From Streptomyces sp. CGMCC 4.7035 (GTDB lineage Bacteria > Actinomycetota > Actinomycetes > Streptomycetales > Streptomycetaceae): a DNA stretch of 64,000 bases. The stretch covers positions 2,790,001 through 2,854,000 of the forward strand of contig NZ_CP134053.1 in assembly GCF_031583065.1 (NCBI RefSeq), in the 5' to 3' direction. Shown here one piece after another: positions 1,829 through 21,610 of this stretch. The notes under the pieces are model-generated. The model did not search any database. It saw only the letters and a list, made by a program, of their open reading frames with translations, and was not told the DNA's origin. The position numbers and the translations under genes are program-made. Each line of letters starts with the position of its first letter. The first letter of the stretch is position 1.

Positions 1829-3334
1829 TCACGAGCACGTTTCTGACAGCGGGTTCGGCAGCAGCGCCCACCGATCCCCGGACAGCCCGGGGGACAGCCG
1901 CATCAGCGTCAACGCCTTTGCGGGCAGGGGTTCTTCGCGCAGTGGCGTCAGATCGGGGGTGTTCGGCAGATCCCGTACGGCGGTCTCCAGCGCCGCCCGC
2001 AGGACGGGCGCCGACCCCGCCGTCGAGGCCAGTGCGCCCGCGACGAGCGAGCCGAACAGCTTGCGGCGCAGCGTCGTCTCCTCGTCCGTGACGATCCGGC
2101 CGGCCAGCTCCGGGGCCTTGATGCCGTGACGGGCCAGCCGGGCCGGGCTCACCCGTATGTCGGCGAGGTCGCGGTAGACCAGCCGCAGCGGGGCACCCGT
2201 GGACGAGAGCACCACGAGGAGGTTCTGGCCGTGCGCCTCCAGGGCCACGCCGAGGTCCAGCAGTCGCAGACCGACGGTGAGGGCGAGACGCGTGAACTCG
2301 GCGAGCCAGGCGGGGGACGCGGGCAGGCCGGTGACCGGCAGAGCGGCCACCGGGACGACCCGTTCGCCCTGCGCCGGGTCCGCGTATGTCTCGGGCGACT
2401 CCCGCACCACCGCCGCGAGATCGGGGGAGTGCGCGCTGATCGCCCCCAGGGTGCGGGTGACCCGTAGAAGGCCGTCCGTGCGCGCCGCGATCGACTCCAC
2501 GAAGTCGGACACCGTCGCCGACGTGTCGACCGAGTACACCGAGATGTCCCGCACGGAGGACGTCAGCCGGGCGCTGACCGCGGTCTTCACATGGGGACCG
2601 CCGTCGGGCAGCGCCAGCGTCCGCAGGGCCATCAGCGGATGGGCGGCCGGACCGTCCTGCGCGGGTACGCCGAGCACATGCGCCGACTGCCAGGGGTGGA
2701 CCGGGATCAGCGCCCGCTTCCCGTCCCGCAGCCACACCGGCCACTCGCCCCGCACGAGACAGTCGTCCACGGCGACCAGGCCCAGGCGCACCAGCGGCCG
2801 GTGCTCGGGCCCGTAGGCGAGCTGTTCGACCACCGAGAAGCCGGGCCGCGAACGGCAGTTGGGGTGATACGGATGCCCGTCGACCACCCGCTGCTCCCAC
2901 TCCCAGCTGGTCGCCGGCTCGGTGGCGTCCCGTGGCTGCCCCGCCCGTGACAGCGCCAACGAAGCCGTGCTGTGGTCGAGTTCGGCCGCGAACGCGTCAC
3001 CGTGCGGGACGCCGAGAGCCCTGAGCAGCTCCGCCGCACGGTCGTACGCCCGCCCGTCGAGTCGCACCTCGGCGACGTACGCCGCGGTCGCGTACGGGTC
3101 GGCGGGCGGGCCGTGCAGCCGGCGCCCGTCGGTCAGGTGGAGGGCGAGCCCGTCGGCGGTCGGCTCCCGGCGCGCGATCCACGGCAGCGGCTCATGGGCC
3201 AGCGCCCGCCACAGGCGCGACAGGACGGCGGCCCGGGCGCCGGGGAGGGCGGCCGCGTACGACGCCGACAGATCGGGCCGGGCGCCGTCGAGCTCGCCGG
3301 CCAGCTCGGCCTCGGCGGAAGGGGAGGGGTGCAC
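1829..3334 (-). CDS. IucA/IucC-family (NIS) siderophore synthetase 1
   Basis: This NRPS-independent siderophore synthetase uses ATP to condense a carboxylate (citrate or a derivative) with an amine or alcohol in the cytoplasm. Family hallmarks are visible in order: the ATP-binding GHPYHPNCRSR loop, IPVHPWQ, the KTAVSARLTSSVRDIS strand, LEAHGQN and the C-terminal FhuF-like tail ending RWALLPNPLSE. At about 501 residues it is slightly shorter than the usual 550–620. The GTG at 3334 is preferred because TGAGGAG precedes it with good spacing; a start at 3391 would overlap the divergent promoter. It is transcribed away from a second synthetase at 3421–4920. No amine-forming decarboxylase, hydroxylase or acyltransferase lies next to it, so the substrate is unknown. 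Confidence 0.93.
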   Translation of the reverse strand: MHPSPSAEAELAGELDGARPDLSASYAAALPGARAAVLSRLWRALAHEPLPWIARREPTADGLALHLTDGRRLHGPPADPYATAAYVAEVRLDGRAYDRAAELLRALGVPHGDAFAAELDHSTASLALSRAGQPRDATEPATSWEWEQRVVDGHPYHPNCRSRPGFSVVEQLAYGPEHRPLVRLGLVAVDDCLVRGEWPVWLRDGKRALIPVHPWQSAHVLGVPAQDGPAAHPLMALRTLALPDGGPHVKTAVSARLTSSVRDISVYSVDTSATVSDFVESIAARTDGLLRVTRTLGAISAHSPDLAAVVRESPETYADPAQGERVVPVAALPVTGLPASPAWLAEFTRLALTVGLRLLDLGVALEAHGQNLLVVLSSTGAPLRLVYRDLADIRVSPARLARHGIKAPELAGRIVTDEETTLRRKLFGSLVAGALASTAGSAPVLRAALETAVRDLPNTPDLTPLREEPLPAKALTLMRLSPGLSGDRWALLPNPLSETCS

Positions 3335-3420
3335 GGTCGGGCTCCTCAGGGACGGGGGTGGTGCATCGTGGTGAGGGACCACGACATACATACTGATCGC
3401 CAGTGCACCGTACGGAACGA
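3335..3420. promoter_or_regulatory. Divergent promoter region of the two NIS synthetases
   Basis: This 86-base gap separates the two divergent synthetase starts and must hold both promoters. I looked for the 19-bp DmdR/IdeR iron box (TTAGGTTAGGCTAACCTAA type) and see no convincing copy. The only dyad-like elements are short GTACGG repeats near 3410. Regulation by iron is therefore not evident from sequence. Confidence 0.4.
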
Positions 3421-4920
3421 ATGGATCGCGTGGACCCCATGCCCCCCAGGGACGACGTCCCCGAGCGCGCCGACGCCTACGCGGCGGCGCCGCTGCTCAA
3501 CTGTCTGCTCCGGGAGGCGGCGGAGCCCACCGGCGAGCAGGGCGTCCACCGCCTGCGGGCCGGTGGCCGACTGCTGCGCGTGCGCGGCGGACGCCGGCCC
3601 CACGACCCCGAGGTGCACGCCGCCGGGACCTGGCAGCCGCTCACCCACACCGAGCTGGTCAAGCTCAGCGCCGAGGAGCTGGGCCGCGCCACCGGCCTGT
3701 CCAATCTCGAACTGCCCGTCGAGATGATCGACAGCCGGGACGCGGTGGCCGCGATCCTGACCGCACGCGCCCGCGCGACGGCGCCGGACGACCCGTACGT
3801 GCGCTCCGAACAGTCCCTGATCACCGGGCACCCCTACCACCCCGCGCCCAAGGCACGCGGCGGCGGCCCCGTGGCGAGCTGGCTGCCGTACGCCCCGGAG
3901 GCGTATGCCCGCTTCCCGCTCGCCCTGCTGGGTGTGCGCGAGGACACGGTGGTCGAGGAGGGCGACACATCGGCGCTCGACGCGCTCGGCACCGCTCCGC
4001 GCGGCTACCGGCTGTTGCCCGCGCACCCCTGGCAGCTCGACCTGGTCGCCGCCCGCCCGGAGATCCGCGCGGCGTTCGAGGACGGGCGCCTCGTCCGCCT
4101 CGGCGACACCCCGCGGACCGTGTGGCCCACGGCCGCGATCCGCACGGTGTACGCCCCCGAGGACGACCTCTTCGTCAAGTTCAGCCTGGACGTGCGGATC
4201 ACCAACGACATCCGCCGGCTGTGGCGCCACGACCTGCTCAAGCTGCGCCGCACCGACGAGGCGGCCGCGGCCGCGTTCGCCGCGCACCGGGGCCCGGCGG
4301 CCTGGTTGAGCGACCGCGGCTACCGCACCGCGGACTTCGCCTTCGAGGAACTGGCCGTCCTGGTCCGCGACGGCCTGCGCCCGCACCTCCTGCCCGGCGC
4401 CACCCCGCTGCTCGCCGCGACCCTCGTGGAGGGCTTCGACGGCAGCCCGCTCGACGCGCCGGCCGACCCGGGGGACTGGTGGGCCGCGTATCTGCGCCAG
4501 GTCGTCCCACCCGCCCTGGAGGCGTTCGAGCGGCACGGCGTCGTCCTGGAGGCGCATCTGCAGAACACGCTGGTCGCGGTCGACTCCGGGGGCCTGCCCG
4601 TCCAGGCGCTGTTCCGGGACGCGGAGGGCGTCAAGCTCCTGACGGACGTGTCGCGTCAGGCGGGCTGGGAGCGGCTCGTCTACTGCCTGATCGTCAACAA
4701 CCTCACGGAGGTGGCCGCGCTGCTGTCGGAACGCCACCCCGGCTGGGACCCCTGGCCCGCCGCCCGTGCGGAACTGGGCCGCCACCCCGTCCCCGAGATC
4801 CCCGCTCTGCTCGTCTCGCCCACCCTCCCCGGCAAGACGAACCTCCTGCTGCGCTGGACGGGCGCGGACGGCGCGGACGCGCGCTATCTGCCGCTGCCCA
4901 ATCCGCTGGCCGGCCGCTGA
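3421..4920 (+). CDS. IucA/IucC-family (NIS) siderophore synthetase 2
   Basis: This is a second NRPS-independent siderophore synthetase of about 499 residues. It has GHPYHPAPKARGG, LLPAHPWQLD, FVKFSLDVRITNDIRRL, LEAHLQNTLV and a C-terminal FhuF-like segment ending YLPLPNPLAGR, all matching IucA/IucC ATP- and carboxylate-binding elements. It presumably catalyses a different condensation from the divergent partner, as in two-synthetase pathways such as aerobactin and achromobactin. The start is uncertain: ATG 3421 is used here, with GTG 3403 and ATG 3433 as alternatives and only a weak GGAACG site. It converges on the dioxygenase gene ending at 5175. Confidence 0.92.
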   Translation: MDRVDPMPPRDDVPERADAYAAAPLLNCLLREAAEPTGEQGVHRLRAGGRLLRVRGGRRPHDPEVHAAGTWQPLTHTELVKLSAEELGRATGLSNLELPVEMIDSRDAVAAILTARARATAPDDPYVRSEQSLITGHPYHPAPKARGGGPVASWLPYAPEAYARFPLALLGVREDTVVEEGDTSALDALGTAPRGYRLLPAHPWQLDLVAARPEIRAAFEDGRLVRLGDTPRTVWPTAAIRTVYAPEDDLFVKFSLDVRITNDIRRLWRHDLLKLRRTDEAAAAAFAAHRGPAAWLSDRGYRTADFAFEELAVLVRDGLRPHLLPGATPLLAATLVEGFDGSPLDAPADPGDWWAAYLRQVVPPALEAFERHGVVLEAHLQNTLVAVDSGGLPVQALFRDAEGVKLLTDVSRQAGWERLVYCLIVNNLTEVAALLSERHPGWDPWPAARAELGRHPVPEIPALLVSPTLPGKTNLLLRWTGADGADARYLPLPNPLAGR

Positions 4921-4950
4921 GCGCCGGCTGCCGGCGTGTAACGGTGTCGG

Positions 4951-5014
4951 CGCGTACGGGTGGCGGCGGGTGCGGGTGGCGGCGCCTACGGTTGGCGGCG
5001 CGCACAGGCGGGAC
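4951..5014. repeat. Four 16-bp tandem repeats downstream of NIS synthetase 2
   Basis: Units start at 4951, 4967, 4983 and 4999, with consensus CGCGTACGGGTGGCGG; the fourth is degenerate. They lie in the 254-bp convergent gap between synthetase 2 and the PhyH gene. No coding or RNA signal is seen in the rest of this gap. Confidence 0.7.
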
Positions 5015-5174
5015 GGCAGGTACATGCCGACAGTAGCTGGGCGTCGTCGCGGTCGGCGGCCTCGGCCGCCACGGTGATGTCCGCAGAACTACGCAGGGAG
5101 CAGGTGAGAAGGCGGCCGGCCACGGGAGTGACCGGCCACTCCTGAAGTGCCTGGCCAGTGCGGAGCTGCCTGGC

Positions 5175-5960
5175 TCAGGCCGTTGCCGCGTCCGAATTGC
5201 GGACCTTGCGGACGTTCTCGTTCAGGCCGTGGTCGGCGCCCTGGGCGCGTTCGAAGTCGACCATGGCGGCGGGGCGGTAGTTGAGGATGTACGCACGGCG
5301 GGTGTGGTCCGTCGTATTACCGCGGGAGGAATGCAGCGTGCCGCCGGCGTGGGCGACACCGTGTCCGGCGGGGAGCGGGACGGCGGTGGCGCCGGGCTCG
5401 TCCTCCGAGCAGTCGCACTCGATGTTCTTGCCGTCGCTGGTCGGGCGGTGCGGACGCAGCGGGAGCTCGTGCGAGCCGCGCACGTACCACATGCAGCCGT
5501 TGTCGGGCGTGGCATCGTCGAGGGCGATCCAGATCGACACGGCACGGGTGTCGGGCAAGTCGACCCAGTACGCCATGTCCTGGTGCCAAGGAGTGGCGAC
5601 GGCCGAGTGCGGGTCCTTGTGGATCAGCATGTCGAAGTCGAGGACCGCGTCCTGGCCGATGAGTTCGCGGGCCGTGCTCAGGGCGCGCTCGTGCAGCGGC
5701 ATCTCGCGCAGCTCCGGGTGGAGGGCAGACGGCCACATGATCTGGGTGATGTTCTCCCGGCCGCCATCCCGCTCCCCCACGTGGCTGCCGAGGTCGGAGC
5801 GCTTGTCGCCGCTCTCGATCTCGCCGCTGAGGAAACGGTCGTAGATATCTCGGTACGTCTCGACCTCGTCCGCAGTGAGGAGTTGGCCTACCTTGGTGAA
5901 TCCGTCCTCCTTGAATACTCGTGCCCTGTCGTTCCCGGTCACCATCTTCACCGCGCTCAT
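5175..5960 (-). CDS. PhyH-family Fe(II)/2-oxoglutarate dioxygenase
   Basis: This is a phytanoyl-CoA dioxygenase-superfamily oxygenase of 261 residues, the normal family length. It has the HxD metal motif in TPWHQDMAYWVDLPD (about residues 123–137) and the distal His in GTLHSSRGN, followed by the basic residues (RRAYILNYRP) that bind 2-oxoglutarate. Bacterial members hydroxylate or otherwise oxidise small molecules in secondary metabolism. It is the last gene of a six-gene minus-strand run and starts 68 bases after the LmbU-type regulator. The ATG at 5960 is preceded by GAGGGGCAGGG. The substrate is unknown; a tailoring hydroxylation in the same pathway is inferred from context. Confidence 0.9.
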   Translation of the reverse strand: MSAVKMVTGNDRARVFKEDGFTKVGQLLTADEVETYRDIYDRFLSGEIESGDKRSDLGSHVGERDGGRENITQIMWPSALHPELREMPLHERALSTARELIGQDAVLDFDMLIHKDPHSAVATPWHQDMAYWVDLPDTRAVSIWIALDDATPDNGCMWYVRGSHELPLRPHRPTSDGKNIECDCSEDEPGATAVPLPAGHGVAHAGGTLHSSRGNTTDHTRRAYILNYRPAAMVDFERAQGADHGLNENVRKVRNSDAATA

Positions 5961-6028
5961 CCCTGCCCCTCGTGCGAGCGTGAAACAACGTGTTCTTCAC
6001 CGAACCTAGTGAGATGGATTCGACGCGG

Positions 6029-6736
6029 TCAATGGCGGTGTGAAGGTGCGGAGTTGTGGCCTGCGGCCGTATCAAGGACGTCGAGTATCCAGTGCGGGAG
6101 ATCCCGGTCGGCGCGTCGGGCCGCCGCTTCCCAGCGCCGTTGGCGTTCCGCGGATACCGGGAGTCTCAATTCCGCTGATTCCGCCGTCCCTTTTGTGGCT
6201 TCCTGTGAGGAGGTTGCGGCTTCCTGTGAGGAGGCAGGGTCGGTCGGCGAGGAAACGGCTTCGGTACTGATGCGGCGGCGCAGTTCATTGCGGGACCAGC
6301 CCTCCTTTCCGGCGTGGTCCAGCCACATGTCCTGGAGGTCCGGCGGCATGGCGGCGACCTCCGCGTGGTGCTGCATACTCAGGCCGGCCCGGCGGCGCCC
6401 GGACGGGAATTTCCGTGCTATCCAGGCGTAGTTGCGCAGGGTCTGGTAATCGAGCGAAGTGCCGTCGATGGCATGACGGTAACGCTCCGGGAAACGGTCC
6501 TGCCCGTAGACCAACCAGTCGCCCAGCCACCAGGCCGCGGAGTCGGCGGCAGCGGTGAGGTTCTGGCCGATACGCAGCCAGTCATCGATGGGTAGCCGGG
6601 CGGGCAGCCGCAGCGAGGTCCGGTCGGTGCGCAGGGGCCGCGCTCCCGCCAGGGCGGCGGCGCGGCCTGCGGGAGTTCTGTCCGCGGCACGGCGCGAGGC
6701 GACCTCAACTCGCCTGAGATCAGTAGGATGTTGCAT
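6029..6736 (-). CDS. LmbU-family cluster-situated transcriptional regulator
   Basis: This 235-residue protein resembles LmbU/NovE/HrmB-type regulators of actinomycete antibiotic clusters. It has the characteristic LPIDDWLRIGQNL and DSAAWWLGDWLVYGQDRF segments (about residues 50–85), then LRNYAWIARKF and a helix-turn-helix-like WSRNELRRRI region, with a variable charged C-terminus. A short SSQEAATSSQEAT repeat sits near residues 175–187. The ATG at 6736 is chosen because AAGGAGG lies five bases upstream; the longer frame to 6793 lacks this. Family members activate secondary-metabolite genes. Its place inside the operon between UDP-glucose dehydrogenase and the dioxygenase supports a role as pathway-specific activator. 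Confidence 0.85.
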   Translation of the reverse strand: MQHPTDLRRVEVASRRAADRTPAGRAAALAGARPLRTDRTSLRLPARLPIDDWLRIGQNLTAAADSAAWWLGDWLVYGQDRFPERYRHAIDGTSLDYQTLRNYAWIARKFPSGRRRAGLSMQHHAEVAAMPPDLQDMWLDHAGKEGWSRNELRRRISTEAVSSPTDPASSQEAATSSQEATKGTAESAELRLPVSAERQRRWEAAARRADRDLPHWILDVLDTAAGHNSAPSHRH

Positions 6737-6856
6737 TGCAGCCTCCTTGATCGACTTGACTGGATCATGGAGGCCGCGCCACACGCACGACAAGGTCTAG
6801 ACCAGTCATCTGTGCGATCACGCCAGGTGGCTGACCAAGGACGGGGGCAGTCGTGC

Positions 6857-8179
6857 TCAGGGCCGCCCCATCGCCCGGTACTCCCACCCCGCCGCACGCC
6901 ACCGGTCCGCGGCCAGGGCATGCCGGGCGTCCACGATGCGCCGCTCGGCGACGGCCGTGCCCAGTTCCTCGGGGTCCAGCTCCACGTAGTCACGCCACTC
7001 CGTGAGCAGCAGCACCACCTGCGCGTACTGCGCCGCCGCCGACGCCGACGCGGCGCAGTTCAGCGTGGGGTACGCCTTGCGCACATGGTCGAGGGCGACC
7101 GGATCGTGCACGGAGACCACCGCGCCCTGCCGGTCCAGGGCCGCTGCCACGGCGAGCGCCGGGGAGTCCCGGATGTCGTCGGAGTCCGGCTTGAACGCCG
7201 CGCCGAGCACCGCCACCTTGCGCCCGGCGAGGACTCCCCCGGCGAGCTCCCGGGCGAGGTCCACCACCCGCTCCCGGCGGCGCAGATTGATCGCGTCCAC
7301 CTCACGCAGAAAGCTCAGGGCCGACCCGGCACCCAGCTCCTCGGCCCGCGTCCACAGCGCCCGGATGTCCTTCGGCAGGCAGCCACCGCCGAACCCGAGG
7401 CCGGGGCGGAGGAACCGCCCGCCGATCCGCTCGTCGAGGCCGAGCGCCTCGGAGAGTCGGACGACGTCCGCGCCCGCCGATTCACAGACCTCGGCCATCG
7501 CGTTGATGTATGAAATCTTGGTGGCGAGGAAGGCGTTGGCGGCGCTCTTCACCAGCTCAGCGGTCGCGAAATCCGTGACCACGTACGGGATTTCATGACC
7601 CAGCGGTGCATATACATCGCGCAATATTCGTTCGGCGTGCTCGCTCCGTACGCCGAGCACGATCCGGTCCGGGTGCAGCGTGTCCGCCACCGCGAATCCC
7701 TCGCGCAGGAATTCCGGGTTCCAGGCAAGTTCTGCTCTGACGCCTGCCGCAGCCTTGTCCTCGATACGGGCGGCGAGCCTTTCCGCAGTGCCCACCGGAA
7801 CAGTGGACTTACCTACGATGAGGCATTCCCGTACGAGATGCGGAGCGAGGGAGTCCACTGCCGCGTCGAGCTGCGAGAGATCAGCGGCGAAACCGTCGGA
7901 GCGCTGTGGTGTGCCCAGGCAGAGGAAATGTACATCGCCGAATGCACCGGCCTCCTCGTAGGAGGTGGTGAAGCGCAGTCGGCCTGATGCCACATGGCGC
8001 TCGAGTAGCCCACCCAAATCCTTTTCGTGGATGGGGAGTTCAGCGTTATTGAGGCGCGTTACCCGCTCCGCGTCGATATCGAGGGCGAGCACCTCGTGCC
8101 CGGCCTCGGCCATACAGGCGGCGTGGGTGATGCCGAGGTATCCGCTCCCGATCACCGTCATGCGGTACGGCTTGGTCAT
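6857..8179 (-). CDS. UDP-glucose/GDP-mannose 6-dehydrogenase family protein
   Basis: This NAD-dependent four-electron dehydrogenase (440 residues, full length) converts an NDP-hexose to the NDP-hexuronate, most likely UDP-glucose to UDP-glucuronate. The N-terminal Rossmann motif is VIGSGYLGITHAACMAEAGH. GTPQRSDG follows, then the central helix ELVKSAANAFLATKISYINA with the catalytic lysine, the catalytic cysteine in FGGGCLPKDIRAL, and the C-terminal UDP-binding domain (VLGAAFKPDSDDIRDSPAL). The start has GAGGACAGG upstream. It lies 43 bases after the MFS gene in the operon. With the neighbouring glycosyltransferase domain it suggests that a uronic acid or pentose derived from it is used in the pathway. 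Confidence 0.93.
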   Translation of the reverse strand: MTKPYRMTVIGSGYLGITHAACMAEAGHEVLALDIDAERVTRLNNAELPIHEKDLGGLLERHVASGRLRFTTSYEEAGAFGDVHFLCLGTPQRSDGFAADLSQLDAAVDSLAPHLVRECLIVGKSTVPVGTAERLAARIEDKAAAGVRAELAWNPEFLREGFAVADTLHPDRIVLGVRSEHAERILRDVYAPLGHEIPYVVTDFATAELVKSAANAFLATKISYINAMAEVCESAGADVVRLSEALGLDERIGGRFLRPGLGFGGGCLPKDIRALWTRAEELGAGSALSFLREVDAINLRRRERVVDLARELAGGVLAGRKVAVLGAAFKPDSDDIRDSPALAVAAALDRQGAVVSVHDPVALDHVRKAYPTLNCAASASAAAQYAQVVLLLTEWRDYVELDPEELGTAVAERRIVDARHALAADRWRAAGWEYRAMGRP

Positions 8180-8221
8180 GTTCCTGTCCTCGGGGGGTGG
8201 GGTGAGGGGTGACTGTACGGG

Positions 8222-9499
8222 CTATGCGGGTGATACGGGCTGTACGGATCCGGGTGTGCGAACCGTGCGCCGCAGCCGCCGGATCGGGGCCGTCGCGATC
8301 AGCGCCGCCGCGCACCCGGCGCTCATCAGGGCGGCGAGCAGCAGCAGTTGATGGACGCCCACGGCCGAGCCGGCCGGTCCAGCGATCACCTGGCCGAGCG
8401 GGACGGCGAGGATCGAGCCCGCGATCTCGTACGCGGAGATCCGGTTGAGCTTGTCCTCGGGGATCTGGGTCTGCACGGTCGTTGACCACTGCACACCCCA
8501 GAACGCCCAGCCGATGCCGCTGACGGCGTACCCGAGGAGCACCAGCCACAGTGCGAGATCCTCAGCGAGCCCCGCGGCGAGCGGCATCAGCGGGAACAGG
8601 AACATCGCGACCGCCCCGCCGAGCAGTGGCCGCGCGGGCCGGATCCGGATCGCGACAAGCCCGCCGAGCACACACCCGGCGCCGAACGCGCCCTCCGCGT
8701 ACCCGAAGGCGGCACTCCCGTGCTCCCCTGTGACCGAGGCCGCGCCGAGCGGCGTGACCGGACCCCAGACGAACACGCCGAGCACCCACCAGATGAGGAT
8801 GACCGCCCATAGCCAGGACCGGGACCGGAACTCCTGCCAGCCCTCCCGCAGGTTCTTCAGGGTCGACGCCGAACGGTCGACGGTGTACGCCCCGAGCCGC
8901 AGCGCGAGCAGGCAGAGCCCGCTCGCCCCGAACGTGACCGCGGTCACCGCGAACGCCCACGCCGGGGAGAATGCCGCGAGGAGCCCGGCGAGCGCGGGCC
9001 CCGCCATGGTCGAGATGCCCTGGGCGACCCGCAGCACCCCGTTGGCCTTGTGTGCGTCGGTGGCGACCTGCGGGACCAGGCCGTTCACGCCCGGCTGGAA
9101 CATCGCGGTGGCCAGACCGCCGAGCGCCGTCACACCGATCAGGAACCACAACTCCGGTCGCCCGGTCGCGAAGGCGAGGGCGGTCGCGCCGATCAGGCCG
9201 CAGCGCACCGCGTCCGCCCCGATCATCAGCGGCCGCGGATGGATCCGGTCCGCGAGGACGCCACCGAACACTACGAACAGGGCGAATGCCCCCATCCAGG
9301 CGCCGAGCGCATAGCCGACGGCGCTCACCCCGTACCCGAGTGCCAGCATGGCGACGGACAGGGCGACGGGCAGCATCGCATCGCCGAGCAGCGAGGCGAT
9401 GCGGGCGGTGAAGTAGAGGGTGAAGTTACGGGTCCACAGCGGCTGCCCGTCCGCCGCCGGCGGGTCGGCCCGGCCCGCCGCCTTGGTTGTCTCGGTCAT
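8222..9499 (-). CDS. MFS transporter (EntS/DHA3-like exporter)
   Basis: This integral membrane protein of 425 residues has about twelve hydrophobic segments. The first begins FTLYFTARIASLLGDAMLPVAL, and the loop 2–3 signature region reads GGVLADRIHPRPLMIGADAVR, as in major facilitator exporters of the EntS/macrolide-efflux type. Its start lies one base beyond the stop of the AsnB-like gene, with GTGGAGC serving as ribosome site, so the two are translationally linked. In this context it probably exports the product made by the surrounding enzymes. A substrate cannot be read from sequence. Confidence 0.9.
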   Translation of the reverse strand: MTETTKAAGRADPPAADGQPLWTRNFTLYFTARIASLLGDAMLPVALSVAMLALGYGVSAVGYALGAWMGAFALFVVFGGVLADRIHPRPLMIGADAVRCGLIGATALAFATGRPELWFLIGVTALGGLATAMFQPGVNGLVPQVATDAHKANGVLRVAQGISTMAGPALAGLLAAFSPAWAFAVTAVTFGASGLCLLALRLGAYTVDRSASTLKNLREGWQEFRSRSWLWAVILIWWVLGVFVWGPVTPLGAASVTGEHGSAAFGYAEGAFGAGCVLGGLVAIRIRPARPLLGGAVAMFLFPLMPLAAGLAEDLALWLVLLGYAVSGIGWAFWGVQWSTTVQTQIPEDKLNRISAYEIAGSILAVPLGQVIAGPAGSAVGVHQLLLLAALMSAGCAAALIATAPIRRLRRTVRTPGSVQPVSPA

Positions 9500-9500
9500 C

Positions 9501-11303
9501 TCAGAGCTCCACTCGCACGCCGTAGGTACGCAGCCAGTCGTCGAGTTGCAGCGCCGTCTCCAGGACCGCCCGGCCGACCCCTTCCAGGCCCGGCGCCTGC
9601 TTCAGTCCGTCCGAGAGCAGCGGCAGGACGGGACTCTCCCCGGCTCGTACGACAGCGGCGAGACGCTCGCGCAGGACTCGGTCGTAGGCCGCGTCCCGCA
9701 GGTTCGGGTACGGCGTCTTGACCCGCATCGCCACCTTCTCGGGCAGCGCGTCGCGCAGGGCGGCGCGCAGCACGCTCTTCTCACGGCCGTCGTGCGACTT
9801 CATCGACCAAGGGATGTCGAAGGCGTACGCGAGCAGCCGGGGGTCGGCGAACGGTACCCGGATGTCCAGGCCCGCGGCCATGCCTAGCCGGTCGAGCCGG
9901 TCGAAAAGCACCCGGGAGTGTCGGGTCAGGGCGAGATAGGTGACCTCGCGGTGCCGGGCCTCGGCCGGATCGGCGACGACTTCGCGTGCACCCAGCTCGG
10001 CGATCGCGTCGCGGTGGCAGTCGTGTTCGTACGTCGCCAGGTCCAGGGTCGCGAGCAGGGAGGCGTCGAAGACCCGGTCCATGCCGTCGAAGCGGGCCCG
10101 GCCCTCGGCGACCCAGGGGAAGGTGTCGGTGTGCACCCAGCGGTCGAAGCGCTGCCAGTTGTAGCCACCGAACACATCGTCGCCGAGCTCACCGGAGAGC
10201 GCGACGGGCGCATGCCCGCGCGCGGCGCGGAACAGGCTGAGCAGCGAGGCGTACTGGTCACCCTTGTTGATCGGGATGTCGTACGCGGCGAGTACGTCGG
10301 CGCGCAGCCGCGAGTCGAGCAGGTCGAGGCCGGTGAGGGAGATCTCGTGGTGGTCCGTGCCGGCGTGCTCGGCCATCATGCGGGCGTAGAGGTGGTCCTC
10401 ATTGCCCGAAGTGCCGTCCGCGTCCTGGTCGTTGACGGCGAGGCTGCGGATCGGGCCGGTGCCGAGCCCGCTAGCCGTCCGCGCGGCCAACGCCGTCAGT
10501 GAGCTGGAGTCGAGGCCCCCGGAGAGCAACGAGGCGGGCGGCTCGCCGCCGGGCCCGAACTGCTCCGCGACCACCGTCTCCAGGAGCTCCCGCACCGTCG
10601 CCACGGTCTTGTCCAGGCCGTCGGTGTGCTCCCCGGCCCGCAGCGCCCAGTACGTCCGCTCACGCAGGCCACCGACCCTGCTGACACGCACCACACACCC
10701 GGGCCGCACCTCCCGCATGCCCCGGAACATCGCGTGTCCCGGCACTCGGGCGATGGAAAGAATGTCGCGCAGGCCACCCGCGTCGACGGCCGGTGTGAAG
10801 TCGGGGTGCGCGAGGACCGCTTTCGGCTCCGAGCCGAACAGGACGCCGTGCTCCGTCGGCGCGTAGAACAGCGGCTTCACGCCCATCCGGTCACGTACCA
10901 GGAGCAGTTCCTCGCACCGCTCGTCCCAGACCGCGAAGGCGTAGGTACCCTCGATCCGCTCGGCGCACTCCTCGCCCCACTGCCGGTAGGCGCGAAGGGC
11001 TACCTCCGCCTCGTTCTGGGAGACGAACTCCTGGCCTAGGCTGCGGAGTTGAGCGCGCAGTGCCTGCGCGTTGCTGATGCGTCCGGCGTACGTGACGACG
11101 GTGCGGCTCCCTGTGGCATCGCCGGACACCAGCGGTTGGCCGTCGGCCGCCGAGGTGCTCCGGTGCCCGAGTGCGGCGTGGGCCGACCGCCACAGCCCTG
11201 CACCGCCCGGGCCGCGTCCGGCGAGGCTCGCGGTCATGACGCCCAGTGGGTCCACCGCCTCGGCGGCGCGCACGAAGTCGACCCAACCGGCTATGGCTGA
11301 CAT
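9501..11303 (-). CDS. Asparagine synthetase B-like amidoligase lacking the N-terminal Cys
   Basis: The 600-residue protein has the two-domain AsnB layout: an N-terminal Ntn-hydrolase-like glutaminase domain (about 1–210) and a C-terminal ATP-pyrophosphatase domain with the PP-loop LLSGGLDSSSLTALAAR, SGELGDDVFGGYNW and LDIRVPFADPRL. True glutamine-dependent enzymes begin Met-Cys; this one reads MSAIAGWVDF, so Ser replaces the nucleophilic Cys that becomes residue 1 after Met removal. The glutaminase is therefore probably inactive, as in beta-lactam synthetases and some lasso-peptide cyclases. It may use ammonia or another amine to form an amide, or close a ring. It follows the fusion gene by 36 bases in the operon. 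Confidence 0.9.
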   Translation of the reverse strand: MSAIAGWVDFVRAAEAVDPLGVMTASLAGRGPGGAGLWRSAHAALGHRSTSAADGQPLVSGDATGSRTVVTYAGRISNAQALRAQLRSLGQEFVSQNEAEVALRAYRQWGEECAERIEGTYAFAVWDERCEELLLVRDRMGVKPLFYAPTEHGVLFGSEPKAVLAHPDFTPAVDAGGLRDILSIARVPGHAMFRGMREVRPGCVVRVSRVGGLRERTYWALRAGEHTDGLDKTVATVRELLETVVAEQFGPGGEPPASLLSGGLDSSSLTALAARTASGLGTGPIRSLAVNDQDADGTSGNEDHLYARMMAEHAGTDHHEISLTGLDLLDSRLRADVLAAYDIPINKGDQYASLLSLFRAARGHAPVALSGELGDDVFGGYNWQRFDRWVHTDTFPWVAEGRARFDGMDRVFDASLLATLDLATYEHDCHRDAIAELGAREVVADPAEARHREVTYLALTRHSRVLFDRLDRLGMAAGLDIRVPFADPRLLAYAFDIPWSMKSHDGREKSVLRAALRDALPEKVAMRVKTPYPNLRDAAYDRVLRERLAAVVRAGESPVLPLLSDGLKQAPGLEGVGRAVLETALQLDDWLRTYGVRVEL

Positions 11304-11339
11304 GCAAATGAACCCTTCTGAAGACGAGTTGGGGCGGGG

Positions 11340-13229
11340 TCAGGCGTCGAGCGACGCGACGGCTGTCTCGGCTGCGTCGGCTTTCTCGTCGTAGTCTCCG
11401 TGGATGTCGCAGGCGTACCACTGGGCCAGGGCCCGCATCGCCTCCATGACGCGGGCGGTGGGCCGCCAGCCGAGCTCGCGCTCGATCAGGCCGGTCGCCA
11501 TGGACCAGCGCGGGGAGAGCGGCTGCTGGCTCCACTCCCAGGGGGTACGCCGTGAGACATCGGCGAGCAGCCCGGCGAGCTCCACCTCGCCGTGGAGCGC
11601 GGAGGCCACGTTCAGGACCGGCTCGGCGGGCGGGGCGGCGAGCACGGCACGCAGCGCGTCCGCGAGGTCGCGGTGGTCCAGGATCTGGTGTACACCCTGC
11701 GGGTCGAGCAGCAGCGGGCGGCGTGTCCAGGCCAGGTCCACCCAGCGCACACAGGCCGTGGACGCGGGCGCGTACGGCCCCACCGGGTCGGCGATCCGCA
11801 GCACCTGCACGGGGACCGAGGCGCTCTCGCCCCACTCCCGGCAGCGTCGCTCCTCCTCCCACCAGCCACGGGCCACCTCGTCCCGGGGAGCGTCGGGGCC
11901 CACGGCGTCCTCGGTCAGCTCGTCGGGGGCGCTGCCCCGGTAGACGGCGGCGGAACCGACGTACACAAAACGCTCGACTCCCGGCGCACCAGCGGCGGTC
12001 AGGGCCTCATCGAGGCCGTCGCCGGTGCCGGTGCCGAGGTGGACGACGTAGGACGCGCCCTCCTGTCGCACCTGGAACCCCAGGTCGGTGAGGGTGCCCG
12101 CCAACTGCCGCCCGAACCCGCCCGCACCGCCGGTGACGTGGACGGCGTGTCCCGCGGGCGCCGGCCGCGGGAGCGTTCCGCCGACGCGGCGGCCCTCGTC
12201 CATCGCGGCGAGAGCGAGGTCCCTGACGGTGGGCGCCATCGCGAGGAGTTCCTCGGCGGTGTACTCCTCGCACAGGCCGCCGGGGCCGAGTGTCTCCCAC
12301 ACGGCGGCGGCGGTGACCCGGTCGGGCTCGGCGGCGTCCGAGAGTACGATGCCGGTCGCGTATCCGGTCAGCCATACCGCGTCCGCGATCCGCTCGCCGA
12401 GCTTCTGACGGGCCGGGCGGTGTGCCTCGTCCGCGTACGCCGCGCGACAGCCGCGGAGGGCGCCGGCCCGGCGCAGCCACCGCTCGGTCTCGATGAACTC
12501 CCAGGTACCGGCACCCACCTCACGCACCGCGCAGCGCGCATCCCCGTACTGGTAGAAGGGCACGACGGGAAAGCGCGGACAGTCCCCGGCGCCCGCGTCC
12601 CGCGGGACCTGCCCGGTGAACAGGGTCGCCTGCCGGAAGCCGTGGTAGGCGTTCCCCGCCAGGCTGGGCAGCGCGTCGTGCTGCACGGTGCTCGGCGTGC
12701 AGAAGCGGACGGGGACGCCGCGCTCGTTGAGGAACCGCTGCACGACCACGTCGTAGGGCCAGCCACCGCCGTGCTTCTCCTGGTACTCGCCGTATTCCCG
12801 GGCGAGTTCGGCGGGCAGCATCAGCGCCTGGCACGGCACGTGCTCCTGGAGGGTGTATGCCCAGGTGGTGCCGGAAAGGGCGGCGAGGCGGGCCACGGCT
12901 CCATTGCGGGCCTCCCAGCCACCGTAGAGGGAGATCGCCTCGCCGGGCGGCGCAGCGGCGGCAGCCTGCTCGGCATGCTCGTAGAACCCCTCGGCGAGTA
13001 CCACATCGTCCTGGAGGACCAGGTGATGCGTGGCGTCCGGCGCGACGCACCCCCACGACACCAGGGCGGTACGCAGCGCCGTCGGCCGCCCCTCCGGGTC
13101 GGGGTCGGTGGTCACGAGGATGCGGCCCCGGGGGTCGGCCTCGGCCAGCCGGCGAGCCTCCTCCATGCGCTTGGGGTGCGCCATCACGGCACCGCTCAGC
13201 TTGATCTCATCACGACCTACGGGTCCCAC
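11340..13229 (-). CDS. Glycosyltransferase-like / NAD-epimerase-like fusion protein
   Basis: The N-terminal half (about 1–200) looks like a GT-A glycosyltransferase: a first strand KLSGAVMAHPKR and a DxD-like THHLVLQDDVVLAEGF. After a middle segment (about 215–345) of unknown function comes a Rossmann domain starting HAVHVTGGAGGFGRQLAGTL and running YVGSAAVYRG ... RIADPVGPYAP ... ILDHRDLADAL, as in extended SDR epimerases/dehydratases. The usual YxxxK catalytic pair is not recognisable; the position reads around GWWEEERRCREWG. The GTG at 13229 begins just before the first strand; the longest frame starts at 13280. It is the first gene of the six-gene operon. Roles in sugar transfer and binding are inferred. 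Confidence 0.75.
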   Translation of the reverse strand: MGPVGRDEIKLSGAVMAHPKRMEEARRLAEADPRGRILVTTDPDPEGRPTALRTALVSWGCVAPDATHHLVLQDDVVLAEGFYEHAEQAAAAAPPGEAISLYGGWEARNGAVARLAALSGTTWAYTLQEHVPCQALMLPAELAREYGEYQEKHGGGWPYDVVVQRFLNERGVPVRFCTPSTVQHDALPSLAGNAYHGFRQATLFTGQVPRDAGAGDCPRFPVVPFYQYGDARCAVREVGAGTWEFIETERWLRRAGALRGCRAAYADEAHRPARQKLGERIADAVWLTGYATGIVLSDAAEPDRVTAAAVWETLGPGGLCEEYTAEELLAMAPTVRDLALAAMDEGRRVGGTLPRPAPAGHAVHVTGGAGGFGRQLAGTLTDLGFQVRQEGASYVVHLGTGTGDGLDEALTAAGAPGVERFVYVGSAAVYRGSAPDELTEDAVGPDAPRDEVARGWWEEERRCREWGESASVPVQVLRIADPVGPYAPASTACVRWVDLAWTRRPLLLDPQGVHQILDHRDLADALRAVLAAPPAEPVLNVASALHGEVELAGLLADVSRRTPWEWSQQPLSPRWSMATGLIERELGWRPTARVMEAMRALAQWYACDIHGDYDEKADAAETAVASLDA

Positions 13230-13351
13230 GTCTCCACCCCAACACCAGTGATCGATACGGCTCTTACGGAGCCCCGGCACCGCTCATGTTGACCATGCCC
13301 CCATTCGGCAGCAAGGTCTATACCACCCCTCCGAGTTGGCGCCGGGCATGC

Positions 13352-13443
13352 GGGGTCGATGGCCTTGCGCGTCGCGGTCCGGTGGCCCTGGGCGTCCCGG
13401 CCTGGTGGCCCTGAGCATCCCGGTCCGATGGCTTCGGCGGGCC
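13352..13443. repeat. Four 23-bp tandem repeats in a divergent promoter region
   Basis: Units begin at 13352, 13375, 13398 and 13421. The shared core is close to CGGTCCGGTGGCCCTG. The repeats lie between the six-gene minus-strand operon (start about 13229) and the plus-strand gene at 13509, next to a perfect palindrome. A 23-base period is roughly two helical turns, so the units would present on one face of the DNA, as regulator-binding iterons do. Confidence 0.7.
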
Positions 13444-13445
13444 CA

Positions 13446-13465
13446 CTGTCCCGCCGGCGGGACAG
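13446..13465. promoter_or_regulatory. Perfect 20-bp palindrome, candidate LmbU-type operator
   Basis: The sequence ctgtcccgccggcgggacag is fully self-complementary and contains CGCCGGCG, which I recall as the palindromic core reported for LmbU binding. It lies 43 bases upstream of the GTG at 13509 and about 215 bases upstream of the operon start on the other strand. It could be an operator for the LmbU-type protein or a hairpin; the position between divergent genes favours an operator. Confidence 0.5.
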
Positions 13466-13508
13466 AGTTCCGTGGCCCCATGTCTTCCGTACGCTTGAAG
13501 GAGTTCGC

Positions 13509-14180
13509 GTGACCGCCCCTGCCGTCAGCCCGCCCGGCTCGCCCACCCCGCTCGCCGAGGTCGTCTCGCCGGACGGCCTCACCGTCCGTGCCCGCCACCA
13601 CCACAACCCCTACGGCTATCTATTGTCCGGCGCCGGCCTCGACGCCCTTCTCCTCGACCTCGGCCTGCGCCGCGCTGCCAGCATCTGGCGCCAACACCAC
13701 ATCTCCCCTGCCGCCGCGCCCCGGGACCCGTACCCCCGGCTGTCCATGGGCTTCGTCCTCCTGGACCCCACGGCCGACCGCTGGGTCCGGCACGAGGACG
13801 CCGTACTCGGCGCGATCGCCATCGGGGACGAGGGCCACCGCTTCCTACCGAACGCCGCCGCCAAGGCCGCGGGCCACCGCCGCCTCGACCGCAACTATGG
13901 CGAGGCCGTCCACACCGACCCGCACCTGTGCGGCGACGGCGCCTTCCGCTACGGTCACTCCGCCGAGGTCCGCGGCCTGATCGTCGGCGCCAGCGCGCAG
14001 AGCCCCGACCAGGACCTGTACGAGGCGTCGCTGCTCGCCCAGGACTTCATCGCCGAGCTCGCCGACCGCCACGCAGCCTGGGAGACCACCACCGGCGCCA
14101 CTGACTGGCTCGCCCCCAACGACCGCCCGGCGCCCGGGACGGCCGCCATGACCGCCTTCTTCACCGCCGGGGCGTCGTAG
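13509..14180 (+). CDS. Hypothetical protein (about 223 residues), divergent from the operon
   Basis: The GTG at 13509 has an ideal AAGGAG site five bases upstream, so the start is well supported. The protein contains RLSMGFVLLDPTADRWVRHE, GDEGHRFLPNAAAKAAGHRR and a glycine-rich VRGLIVGASAQSPDQDLYEA segment. The last is faintly like the GlcG/HbpS fold, but I do not claim homology. No signal peptide or membrane segment is seen. It sits directly downstream of the repeat/palindrome region and may share its regulation. A long hairpin 30 bases after the stop probably ends the transcript. Confidence 0.75.
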   Translation: MTAPAVSPPGSPTPLAEVVSPDGLTVRARHHHNPYGYLLSGAGLDALLLDLGLRRAASIWRQHHISPAAAPRDPYPRLSMGFVLLDPTADRWVRHEDAVLGAIAIGDEGHRFLPNAAAKAAGHRRLDRNYGEAVHTDPHLCGDGAFRYGHSAEVRGLIVGASAQSPDQDLYEASLLAQDFIAELADRHAAWETTTGATDWLAPNDRPAPGTAAMTAFFTAGAS

Positions 14181-14210
14181 ACGGGGTGCCCACTCGGGGC
14201 GTGGGCCCGA

Positions 14211-14237
14211 GGTGGAAGTCACCCGGTGACTTCCACC
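14211..14237. terminator. Hairpin terminator after the 13509 gene
   Basis: Arms GGTGGAAGTCAC and GTGACTTCCACC form a perfect 12-bp stem around a CCG loop, 30 bases after the stop codon. There is no T-run, which is common for Streptomyces terminators. Confidence 0.7.
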
Positions 14238-14314
14238 CGGTGGTCCTGCTCCAGCGGCACCTTCCAGCCGCCCCTGAGGAACACACAGAGGTCATCCGGC
14301 CCGGCGTCCCTGGC

Positions 14315-14425
14315 CTACGGCACGACCTCGCGCACGCAGTAGCTGCGGGACACCCCCAGGCCGACGGCGGACTCGGCCCAGGCATTGTCTGCGGCCTCAC
14401 CCAGAGTGCCCGCCACTTGACCACT
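14315..14425 (-). pseudogene. Possible IS3-type transposase remnant
   Basis: The minus strand reads GTLGEAADNAWAESAVGLG, resembling the conserved DNALAES...GLxKTE block of IS3-family OrfB integrases. The reading frame is not intact on either side. The surrounding gap (14238–14743) shows no complete gene. Confidence 0.35.
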
Positions 14426-14743
14426 ACAGTGCGGGAGGCACTCATGGGGTGGCTGACGGCCGACGACGACGCGGCAAGAAGGCCGGCGCCTCGCCGACAT
14501 CGAGCGGTGGATGGCGCGCTCCTTCAGAAGGGTCGTTCGCGGAGCCGTTGGCGTAGTACACAGGGGCGGTTCCCCCCGAGGAGGAGATTCCGGGGGACGC
14601 ATGGAGGACAGGCAGCCGTAGAGGTCCGATTTCAGCCGGTACCAGTCGGACTCGCCGCCCGTCGAAGGGGCGGGGCAGATTCACACGGACGGCCTATAAG
14701 CCCATCTGACCTACAGAAACGCCGCGCCCTGAGAACGGGTTGG

Positions 14744-14817
14744 TGGCGCCCCCGGCAGGACTCGAACCTGCGGCCAAGCGCTTAGAAGGCGCCTGTTCAG
14801 GGGCAGCATTCGGGGGC
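14744..14817 (-). tRNA. Degenerate tRNA-Arg(UCU)-like sequence at the left attachment site
   Basis: Read on the minus strand, the 3' part is a normal tRNA. It has an anticodon loop CTTCTAA (UCU), a GCAGG-TTCGAGT-CCTGC T-arm, a CGGGGGC acceptor strand, a G discriminator and an encoded CCA. The matching 5' acceptor strand GCCCCCG lies at 14811–14817, giving 71 bases. The D-arm, however, reads AATGCTGCCCCTGAACA and cannot form the usual GCTC/GAGC stem. It is either a pseudogene or only the 3' tRNA part captured at an integration site. Confidence 0.35.
14745..14792. repeat. Left copy of a 48-bp direct repeat (putative att site)
   Basis: This block is identical to 28523–28570 and corresponds to the anticodon-to-3'-end half of a tRNA-Arg(UCU) gene. 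Tyrosine-integrase elements of Streptomyces use exactly such tRNA 3' ends as attachment sites. Sequences outside the 48 bases differ between the two copies. Confidence 0.8.
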
Positions 14818-14903
14818 TCTGACCTGCATCGATAGGCAGAGCTGTGGCGCTGTCAGACGGTCGAGAGTGACCGACTTCCTACGGGGATTTGTGCCGCAGG
14901 GAT

Positions 14904-15030
14904 CTACAGCCCTTCCGGGACCGACGGCAGCCGGGCTGTCGCCCAAGGGGTCCAGGTGCCGTAGTCGTCGGTCCAGGTGCAGCTGACCTCGCCGGTGCGG
15001 CAGTCGGCGATGCGGGCGAAGTCGCGCCGG
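14904..15030 (-). pseudogene. Possible 3' gene remnant
   Basis: A minus-strand frame ends with RIADCRTGEVSCTWTDDYGT and about a dozen more residues before a stop at 14904. It looks protein-like but has no start or upstream part. I do not recognise it. The remaining bases from 14818 to 15142 hold nothing else I can support. Confidence 0.25.
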
Positions 15031-15142
15031 CGCCGTCCACCGGCTTTCGCGCGGCGCCCGCAGGGAGGCGAGGCCCCCGCCACTGTCGGCGAACGATGTG
15101 GTGACCGTGTGGCGTGGAGTGTTCGGATTCCCTGGCCTGGCG

Positions 15143-16672
15143 TCATGCCTCCTCGGCGCCGCGGTCTGATAGGGAGCCGTACTGGCTGCGCAGGCGGGCC
15201 TTCAGGATCTTGCCGGTGGCGTTGCGGGGCAGGGCGTCGACGAGGACGACCGACTTGGGGAGCTTGTACTTGGCGAGTCGGCCGGACAGGGAGTCCATGA
15301 TGTCGTCGGGCGACAGGTCGGCGCCCGCGCGGGGCACGACCAGCGCTCTGCCCACTTCGCCCCATCGTTCGTCGGGTACGCCGATCACCGCGCATTCGGC
15401 GACCGCGGGATGCTGGTAGAGGAGTTGCTCGACCTCGGCCGGATAGACGTTCTCCCCGCCGGAGATGTACATGTCCTTGATTCGGTCGACGATCGTGACG
15501 TACCCCTCCTCGTCGACAGTGGCCGCGTCTCCGGAGCGGAACCAACTTCCTTCAACGAAGGCGTCCTTGGTCGCTTCGGGCCACTGCCAGTAGCCCTTCA
15601 TCACGTTGAGGCCCGCGATGATCACCTCGCCGACCTCGCCCGGTGCGACATCGGTGAGGTCGGGCCGCACCACGCGTACGTCGGTGAAGAAGCAGGGTGT
15701 GCCGGCCGAGCCGGCCTTGCGGATGCTGTCCGGTGCGCGCAGGCCCAGCGCGGCGGGAGCGGTCTCGGTCAGGCCGTACGCCTGGAGGAAGGTCAGGCCA
15801 CGGTCCTGGTATGTGTGGATGAGGGCCTTGGGTACGGGGGCCGCCGCGCACATCAGGATCCGGATCGACGACAGATCGGCCGTCGCCCACCGCGACGACC
15901 GGGCCATGGCCTGGTACATCGCGGGCACGCCGAACATCCTCGTCACCCGGTGCTCGGCGATGACGTCGAGCACCCGTTCCGGGTCGAAACCGGGCATCAG
16001 CACCGACGTCCCTCCTTTGAGGAAGCCCGGCAGGAAGACGGTGTTGAGGGCGGCGGTGTGGAACATCGGTGCCACCACCAGAGCGACGTCGTCGGAGGCG
16101 ATGTCCACGTCCAGCAGGATGTTGAAGCAGTTCCAGGCGATGTTGGCGTGGGTGAGCATGACGCCCTTGGGACGGCCGCTGGTGCCAGAGGTGTACTGGA
16201 TCATGCACACCTCATCGAGGCCGACCGTCTCGTCCAGGGGGTTGTCCGGCGCGCTCGCGAGTAGCTCCTCGTACGCTTTCCCCACCTCGACGTAGTGCTT
16301 CACCTCGACATCGTCCCTGAACGCGTCGACGATGTTGGTGAGTTCGGCCCCGAACACCAGCACCGACGCTCCCGAGTCGCCCAGGATGAAGGCCAACTCG
16401 GGTGCCGCGAGGCGGGTGTTGAGCGGGACGAAGACGGCGCCCAGCGCGTTCGCGGCGAACAGGGTTTCCACCAGGGCCGGATGGTTAGCGCCGAGGTAGG
16501 CCACCCGGTCGCCGTGTCCGACCCCCAGGGCACGCAGGGCGTGAGCGAGCCGCGTCACGCGCGCGGCCAGCTCTCCGTAGGACAGGGATCCGCCGTCGTG
16601 CACGACGGCGGTGGCCTCCGGTGCCATGCGGGCACGCCGCGCGGGCCACGAGCCGAGCCCTTGATCGCGCAT
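15143..16672 (-). CDS. AMP-dependent acyl-CoA synthetase/ligase
   Basis: This is a class I adenylate-forming ligase of 509 residues, normal length. It has the P-loop-like YTSGTSGRPKGVMLTH, AYGLTETAPAAL, the hinge GYVTIVDRIKDMYISGGENVYP and the C-terminal catalytic lysine region PRNATGKILKARLR. Such enzymes activate aromatic or fatty carboxylic acids to CoA thioesters. The ATG at 16672 follows GGGAG. It sits 26 bases after the flavin reductase and forms a three-gene unit with it and the acyl-CoA-dehydrogenase-like hydroxylase. A CoA-activated aromatic acid is therefore a plausible substrate, which is inference. Confidence 0.92.
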   Translation of the reverse strand: MRDQGLGSWPARRARMAPEATAVVHDGGSLSYGELAARVTRLAHALRALGVGHGDRVAYLGANHPALVETLFAANALGAVFVPLNTRLAAPELAFILGDSGASVLVFGAELTNIVDAFRDDVEVKHYVEVGKAYEELLASAPDNPLDETVGLDEVCMIQYTSGTSGRPKGVMLTHANIAWNCFNILLDVDIASDDVALVVAPMFHTAALNTVFLPGFLKGGTSVLMPGFDPERVLDVIAEHRVTRMFGVPAMYQAMARSSRWATADLSSIRILMCAAAPVPKALIHTYQDRGLTFLQAYGLTETAPAALGLRAPDSIRKAGSAGTPCFFTDVRVVRPDLTDVAPGEVGEVIIAGLNVMKGYWQWPEATKDAFVEGSWFRSGDAATVDEEGYVTIVDRIKDMYISGGENVYPAEVEQLLYQHPAVAECAVIGVPDERWGEVGRALVVPRAGADLSPDDIMDSLSGRLAKYKLPKSVVLVDALPRNATGKILKARLRSQYGSLSDRGAEEA

Positions 16673-16698
16673 GGTGCGTCTCCCTTCTCTCAGAGCTC

Positions 16699-18521: not shown

Positions 18522-18599
18522 CCGCTGCTGTTCTGGGTCGGCCTGAAGCGAGTGTTGGCAGCGCGGCGAAGGACCGTCCAATGCCGGTAATTGCGGGCT

Positions 18600-18618
18600 T
18601 GATGAGTGCCGCGCATCA
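18600..18618. promoter_or_regulatory. Candidate LysR-type operator
   Basis: TGATG and CATCA arms separated by nine bases lie in the 216-bp gap between the divergent hydroxylase and LysR genes. The position fits a LysR recognition site, but the arms are short. Confidence 0.3.
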
Positions 18619-18737
18619 CAGCAGGTCGGACGGGGTGACGGGAATGCCGCACATTTCTGCCTGGTGACGTGCGGGGAAGCGCGCTGTAACCTGGCGCGGA
18701 CCACAACGTCGTGGACCTCGCCTTTCTGGAGGGCTGA

Positions 18738-19643: not shown

Positions 19644-19649
19644 GAGGGG

Positions 19650-21604: not shown

Positions 21605-21610
21605 GGCCGC

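Follow-up and report, generated by a model that had tools for sequence, protein, structure and literature searches.

A recurrent actinomycete operon with predicted DasR and LmbU operators and a putative uronamide-glycoside product, probably inserted beside a conserved pair of siderophore-type synthetases in Streptomyces

The uronate of moenomycin derives from a nucleoside diphosphate (NDP) sugar. In the unit-B pathway of this compound an amidotransferase, MoeH5, works on the uronate carboxyl (PMC8778134), and MoeE5 is a member of the short-chain dehydrogenase/reductase (SDR) fold. Related chemistry is seen in the hydroxyamidotransferases TsnB9/SaHAT, of which SaHAT works on free benzoate with ATP and glutamyl hydroxamate (PMC13418202), and a distinct kind of tailoring enzyme is represented by the orthosomycin oxygenase EvdO2. 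On the regulatory side, the published operator of DasR in Streptomyces, dre, reads A(G/C)TGGTCTAGACCA(G/C)T (PMC4398421), and that of LmbU reads CGCCGGCG (PMC6510168). We encountered likenesses to all these systems in a 64,000-nucleotide stretch (hereafter the window; G000:C1:2790001-2854000 in our notation, where G marks genomes and L marks loci) of the single-contig, 8.09-Mb genome of Streptomyces sp. CGMCC 4.7035. There, two synthetases of the type used in nonribosomal peptide synthetase (NRPS)-independent siderophore (NIS) assembly, NIS1 and NIS2, lie next to a run of six genes. These code for a fusion protein termed GTR, an AsnB-like ligase, a major facilitator superfamily (MFS) protein, an NDP-sugar dehydrogenase (UGD), an LmbU-family regulator and a PhyH-family oxygenase.

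An earlier note on this DNA had read these eight genes as a single cluster, while allowing that the synthetases and the operon might be separate loci. Pfam and NCBIfam profiles and reading of the sequence agree on the presence of all eight genes. The best explanation, however, is that the NIS pair is a divergent pair at a conserved Streptomyces chromosomal site, and that the operon is a sporadic, separate locus inserted after NIS2. We give a probability of roughly 0.55 to this reading as a whole, including an operon controlled by DasR and LmbU that would make an exported, amidated and oxidised uronic-acid glycoside. The genes and sites concerned are listed below; genes were called with a GC-bias script, which places their starts approximately.

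1829..3334 (open reading frame 1829-3391), minus strand: NIS1, IucA/IucC-type synthetase (IucA_IucC 104.7 bits, cut-off 25)
3421..4920 (open reading frame 3403-4920), plus strand: NIS2, IucA/IucC-type synthetase (IucA_IucC 131.7 bits, cut-off 25)
4935..29078, no strand: insert of about 24 kb, from NIS2 to its usual 3' neighbour gene (L072 alignment and context genes on both sides)
5175..5960, minus strand: PhyH-family Fe/2-oxoglutarate oxygenase (PF05721 126 bits)
6029..6736 (open reading frame 6029-6793), minus strand: LmbU-family regulator (NF038070 217.5 bits, cut-off 125)
6793..6804, no strand: dre-like candidate DasR operator AGGTCTAGACCA upstream of LmbU (1 mismatch to TGGTCTAGACCA)
6857..8179, minus strand: UGD, NDP-sugar dehydrogenase of the uridine diphosphate (UDP)-glucose 6-dehydrogenase type (TIGR03026 416 bits, over cut-off)
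8222..9499, minus strand: MFS exporter (PF07690 90 bits)
9501..11303, minus strand: AsnB-like ligase without cysteine at position 2 (Cys2) (PF00733 206 bits)
11340..13229 (open reading frame 11340-13280), minus strand: GTR, putative GT-A-like glycosyltransferase (GT) domain and SDR-like domain without the YxxxK pair (invariant DD)
13314..13325, no strand: dre-like candidate site AGGTCTATACCA in the divergent promoter (2 mismatches; similar site in the corresponding region of L086)
13448..13463 (20 bp overall, 13446-13465), no strand: LmbU-box palindrome GTCCCGCCGGCGGGAC (exact match once in the genome)
13509..14180, plus strand: div273, recurrent divergent partner (recurrence with the operon)

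The case for two loci begins with the surroundings of the NIS pair. Gene families found around NIS pairs of eight other genomes (L071-L078) have counterparts on either side of the pair in the genome studied: the left flank sits immediately ahead of a 524-residue gene that adjoins NIS1, and the right flank begins near window position 29,040. Read by eye, with no profile behind the names, the flanking genes encode an aminotransferase and a von Willebrand factor type A protein on the left, and a malate synthase, an IclR-type protein and an allantoinase-like enzyme on the right. L072 aligns with the window at 4701-4934 and from 29079 onward, and what is a gap of about 110 bp in L072 is 24 kb in the window. 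The same interval after NIS2 measures 14.3 kb in G169 and 14.4 kb in G124 (GTR was found in neither), 2.7 kb in G208, 1.8 kb in G234, and less than 0.2 kb in L072, L074, L075 and L077. Given these variable sizes, the site appears to take insertions repeatedly, and the operon lies inside one of them.

The distribution of the two parts across genomes points the same way. GTR is encoded in 19 genomes besides that of the window (G019, G111, G149, G173, G341, G246-G249, G893, G1055, G771, G898, G810, G888, G929, G772, G820 and G908; G246-G249 are the genomes of L086-L089, and G248 and G915 are the same genome). NIS2 orthologues, at 55% identity or more, occur in four of them (G111 79%, G173 71%, G929 62%, G810 55%), and of these G173 alone shows the NIS pair adjoining the operon, GTR in G929 sitting at a contig end, where adjacency cannot be judged. 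Joint inheritance of synthetases and operon was thus not found among these genomes. Operon genes were likewise absent from all 23 other NIS neighbourhoods examined (up to 20 kb each), which were hand-picked from 168 genomes as 8 mostly top-scoring and then 15 more diverged cases, one of them a 40% paralogue.

These data bear directly on the view that everything forms one functional cluster, in which the NIS synthetases would condense an amine with the uronate product of the operon or with citrate, and an EntS-like MFS protein would export the resulting sugar-bearing siderophore. The parts adjoin here and also, as an independent case, in G173, whose operon is of the other type, and the MFS protein does match the EntS family, if at 60 bits and far under the cut-off of 324. 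Yet the scarcity of NIS2 orthologues in GTR genomes, the 23 neighbourhoods devoid of operon genes, the insert evidence, and the NIS1-NIS2 intergenic region, which holds neither a dre-like site nor an LmbU box, make this view quite improbable. Synthetases and operon regularly occur apart, which is the outcome that the earlier note had itself named as refuting its cluster. The single-cluster part of that note is therefore mostly wrong, and the carboxylate-condensed product that it had envisaged is not needed under two loci. Its separate-loci alternative is favoured, its operon recurs as a set, its LmbU control is backed by an operator-like site, and its uronate-derived amide is still the best guess.

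The operon itself is a recurrent unit. GTR was found at 51% identity or above in 5 of 246 genus genomes, the window's included, and a further 23 carry distant relatives only (31-43% identical). Protein searches yielded at least 111 matches to div273 and at least 102 to GTR, the window's own counted, only the 7993 candidates that shared most words having been scored in the GTR search. In their sources the relatives are named hypothetical protein, NAD-dependent epimerase/dehydratase or oxidoreductase, with one div273 relative called phospholipase D-like. GTR is also present on linear megaplasmids, namely pSCAT of Streptantibioticus cattleyicolor and one of Streptomyces sp. NBC_01237. We tabulated 19 operon loci, the window and 18 others, leaving out L144 (from G915, the same genome as L088) and G929 (GTR at a contig end); some stretches are cut by contig ends, and the loci are not independent, as L145 and L151 look closely related. 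MFS occurs in all 19, the dehydrogenase in 18, AsnB in 17, PhyH in 15, div273 in 14 and LmbU in 5. Between pairs of loci, GTR identity co-varies with that of div273 (r=0.87), AsnB (0.78) and PhyH (0.78), and less so with that of MFS (0.72) and the dehydrogenase (0.53). No description of the gene combination turned up in the open-licence PMC literature searched, and the set is apparently undescribed.

The loci fall into two types. Type A (window, L086-L089, L145 and L151) combines a TuaD-like dehydrogenase with one kind of MFS protein, although L088 yielded no dehydrogenase. In type B, with 12 loci, the MFS protein is a different one and the dehydrogenase is nearer the UDP-N-acetylhexosamine (HexNAc) type, its best named families being TviB and UDP-N-acetylmannosamine dehydrogenase, all below their cut-offs. 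Between the types, the exchanged dehydrogenase and MFS proteins are about 27% and 24% identical, as against 61% for AsnB and 74% for PhyH. A distant relative of GTR (31-40% identity) was also observed in another recurrent neighbourhood, L079-L084. The only annotated case of these, L081, includes a radical SAM protein, a GHMP kinase, a NUDIX protein, an SDR and a GT2 protein, as well as ATP-binding cassette sugar-transporter genes recognised by eye.

A major feature of the operon is its predicted regulation. A perfect 16-bp palindrome, GTCCCGCCGGCGGGAC, surrounds the published LmbU site in the operon upstream region of the window and, as an exact match, in L086 and L088; in L151 it has one mismatch with the CGCCGGCG core kept. 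It thus accompanies four of the five LmbU-bearing loci, the fifth, L145, being cut off at a contig end, and is found in none of the 14 LmbU-less loci, in which the best candidates have at least 3 mismatches. Apart from the exact copy, the window's genome contains two more places with one mismatch. On the best reading the LmbU protein, whose likely start is ATG 6736 (judged from a ribosome-binding site and L086), would act through this palindrome. The tight six-gene operon of the earlier note did not hold: UGD and LmbU are separated by 120 bp with an operator-like site in between, and the minus-strand run may therefore form two transcripts.

That site, 56 bp ahead of the likely start of LmbU, differs by a single base from the DasR operator core; the second dre-like site falls in the GTR/div273 intergenic region. 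We searched for sites with up to 2 mismatches in the region that runs from 450 bp ahead of the first operon gene to 30 bp within it, and also in a stretch upstream of LmbU where LmbU was not first. Such sites occur in 13 of the 19 loci, while 59 palindromes with permuted half-sites, treated by the identical rule, were found in 0.24 loci on average and in 2 at most. L145 and L151 fell one base short of the rule and are not counted among the 13; L148 and L150 have a perfect core. Elsewhere in the genome, one-mismatch sites are associated with a GntR/HutC-family gene, which we take for dasR by eye from its sequence, together with nagB (above cut-off), with a phosphotransferase-system gene of the N-acetylglucosamine (GlcNAc) type (below cut-off), and, by eye, with one gene resembling a chitin-active lytic polysaccharide monooxygenase and one resembling a chitinase. 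The best reading of these sites is that the operon, like the published DasR regulon, is under DasR control, with binding predicted from sequence. The motif GGTCTAGACC was considered as an LmbU operator and rejected because LmbU-less loci carry it too; it fits the DasR dre.

As to the enzymes, UGD has the motif GFGGGCLPK and scores 374 bits against AglM and 349 bits against TuaD, both under the respective cut-offs. GTR (646 residues) had been described as a fusion of a GT with a Rossmann domain. Of this, the epimerase-like C-terminal part was upheld by Pfam and NCBIfam matches, and the GT part, which has no Pfam match, is a candidate GT-A domain in view of an invariant DD and its secondary structure pattern. 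In two structure comparisons of the whole GTR model every row shown was an SDR entry, the SDR domain taking up the listings; the nearest was MoeE5 with UDP-glucuronate, tied with other epimerases. In the stretch placed by eye as the corresponding region of GTR, the YxxxK pair is absent from the majority of 51 sequences. This sets GTR apart from the moenomycin pathway, as does the lack of a moenomycin-type prenyl or phosphoglycerate gene among the operon genes. The partner protein div273 gave nothing significant with Foldseek alone (best E 0.85), and its sequence profile (A2) found no convincing solved relative; it is a candidate for a DUF336/HbpS-like fold.

The AsnB-like ligase begins MSAIAGW, confirming that it is devoid of the N-terminal Cys2 of glutamine-dependent asparagine synthases, and it nevertheless exceeds the cut-off of TIGR01536. 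It retains SGGLDSS. All 6 readable type-A copies begin MS and all 10 type-B copies MC. The enzyme is likened to MoeH5, which we take to be of the AsnB class, by description and not by comparison of sequences. Its best solved match, in turn, is the hydroxyamidotransferase 7ylz at 424 bits, against 108 bits for asparagine synthetase B. One might accordingly propose that it makes a hydroxamate from free acids in the manner of TsnB9/SaHAT, to which 7ylz is connected by name only, giving a sugar hydroxamate metal chelator; the use of free benzoate by SaHAT would be in keeping with this. We find the idea very doubtful, since serine replaces the Cys2 that would draw nitrogen from a glutamyl donor, and since no amidooxygenase-like family or hydroxamate-donor gene was named among the operon genes in the Pfam and NCBIfam scans. 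PhyH preserves the HxD...H metal motif, as WHQD and LHxSRGN, in all 15 aligned copies, and has EvdO2 as its best solved match at only 101 bits; the comparison with orthosomycin pathways covered this gene. The MFS protein matches EntS and efflux families only below their cut-offs.

From these catalytic motifs and nearest solved sequences we infer a route in which substrates, order of steps and product are all proposals, and for which a uronate-derived, amidated compound remains the best guess: 1) GlcNAc-derived signals would release DasR, acting as a repressor via the dre sites, and the LmbU protein would activate or tune expression through its palindrome. 2) UGD would oxidise UDP-glucose to UDP-glucuronate in type A, and the type-B dehydrogenase would make a HexNAc-uronate. 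3) The GT domain of GTR would transfer the sugar, with the epimerase-like domain, bereft of its catalytic pair, probably holding the sugar nucleotide. 4) The AsnB-like ligase would activate a carboxylate, probably that of the uronate, with ATP and couple an amine or ammonia; the type-A form, which has no glutaminase cysteine, would use ammonia or an amine directly. 5) PhyH would oxidise either the sugar or the aglycone, with export of the product by the MFS protein.

The same gene content could be taken to modify a cell-surface or teichuronic-type polymer instead of yielding a small secreted metabolite. Genes for GTs, epimerase-like proteins and uronate synthesis are common in surface glycan loci, and UGD resembles the teichuronate enzyme TuaD, though under the cut-off of that family. 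We regard this as unlikely: MFS in all 19 loci, PhyH, LmbU control in a subset, and a sporadic, partly plasmid-borne spread fit specialised metabolism better, and no polymerase, flippase or lipid-linked GT was named among the operon genes, other regions of the genome not having been searched for these.

Several observations weigh against an inserted, DasR-controlled glycoside operon. 1) In G173 a type-B operon adjoins the NIS pair in a different context, recognised by eye from genes of L118, L119 and L121: at L066 14164-19037 the operon and the NIS pair stand side by side with a GntR gene, which lies close to NIS2 and carries a dre-like site at 15758. Hence the adjacency arose twice, which chance alone explains poorly; the reason may be a site prone to insertions or a weak functional link between the two parts. 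2) The genome as a whole has 199 dre-like sites with up to 2 mismatches versus 292 for the reversed pattern; there is no excess, and the argument for DasR therefore rests on position and recurrence. 3) The operon promoters of L066, L089, L152 and L153 have no dre site, and the search rule was drawn up after sites had been seen. 4) Some loci are incomplete, AsnB not being found in the fetched stretches of L146 and L150, nor PhyH in 4 of the 19. 5) The sequence profile (A3) of the GT domain found no convincing PDB relative, and Pfam gave no convincing match to this domain either.

Going beyond the window, it is possible, if rather doubtful in so specific a form, that the operon represents an undescribed family of specialised-metabolite pathways in Streptomyces and related actinomycetes, including their megaplasmids. 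Such a family would answer to DasR and chitin sugars, and to LmbU in a subset. It would employ a GT in which an inactive UDP-uronate epimerase domain serves to hold the substrate or as a sensor, tune its sugar by swapping UDP-glucose-type and UDP-HexNAc-type dehydrogenases, and export a uronamide or uronohydroxamate glycoside. Should the chemistry hold, the gain would be a pathway to uronamide glycosides that has an unusual fused glycosyltransferase and an AsnB-like ligase occurring in forms with and without the glutaminase cysteine. The operon alone is a worthwhile uncharacterised family, whose compactness, recurrence and two predicted operators make its product testable. Correcting the false call of one cluster from the NIS pair and its neighbour also illustrates how adjacency-based mining invites such errors.

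The NIS pair shares with non-NRPS siderophore clusters the presence of two IucA/IucC synthetases, whereas the neighbouring operon is unlinked to the synthetases across the genomes examined. NIS1 and NIS2 both have the IucA_IucC and FhuF-like C-terminal domains (PF04183 and PF06276, over their Pfam cut-offs). Their likely starts are GTG 3334 and ATG 3421, judged by eye from ribosome-binding sites and relatives. NIS1 displays the motifs GHPYHP, PVHPWQ, RLTSSVR and EAHGQN; its nearest solved sequence is AsbB, and that of NIS2 is AcsD. Matches to NIS2 at E<=1e-40 occur in 168 of the 246 genus genomes, a count that includes paralogues near 45% identity, and two more IucA/IucC genes lie elsewhere in the same genome. 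A GACATACTGATC-like stretch, noticed by eye, recurs in the NIS intergenic region. The 524-residue protein adjoining NIS1 (window 177-1751) has no Pfam match; its relative in G111, at 64%, likewise neighbours NIS1. Within the fetched stretches, the malate-synthase context is missing from NIS pairs that share about 55-70% identity with the window's (L118-L121, L123-L131 and L066), and a GntR gene lies near the pair in L118, L119 and L121, to name those listed.

Beyond the operon, an Rfam scan of the window returned just two tRNA-like matches. Identical 48-bp direct repeats resembling part of a tRNA occur at 14745-14792 and 28523-28570, with a third copy, at 98%, at G000:C1:6789551-6789604. Between the two window copies lie about 13.8 kb that contain an integrase-like frame (24816-26273) and genes resembling those of aromatic degradation (AMP ligase, acyl-CoA dehydrogenase, ring-cleaving dioxygenase and FAD hydroxylase), and these two copies may be att sites flanking an integrative element nested here. 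A protein encoded at window 26318-28231 fuses an RNase_T exonuclease domain to a TerD domain.

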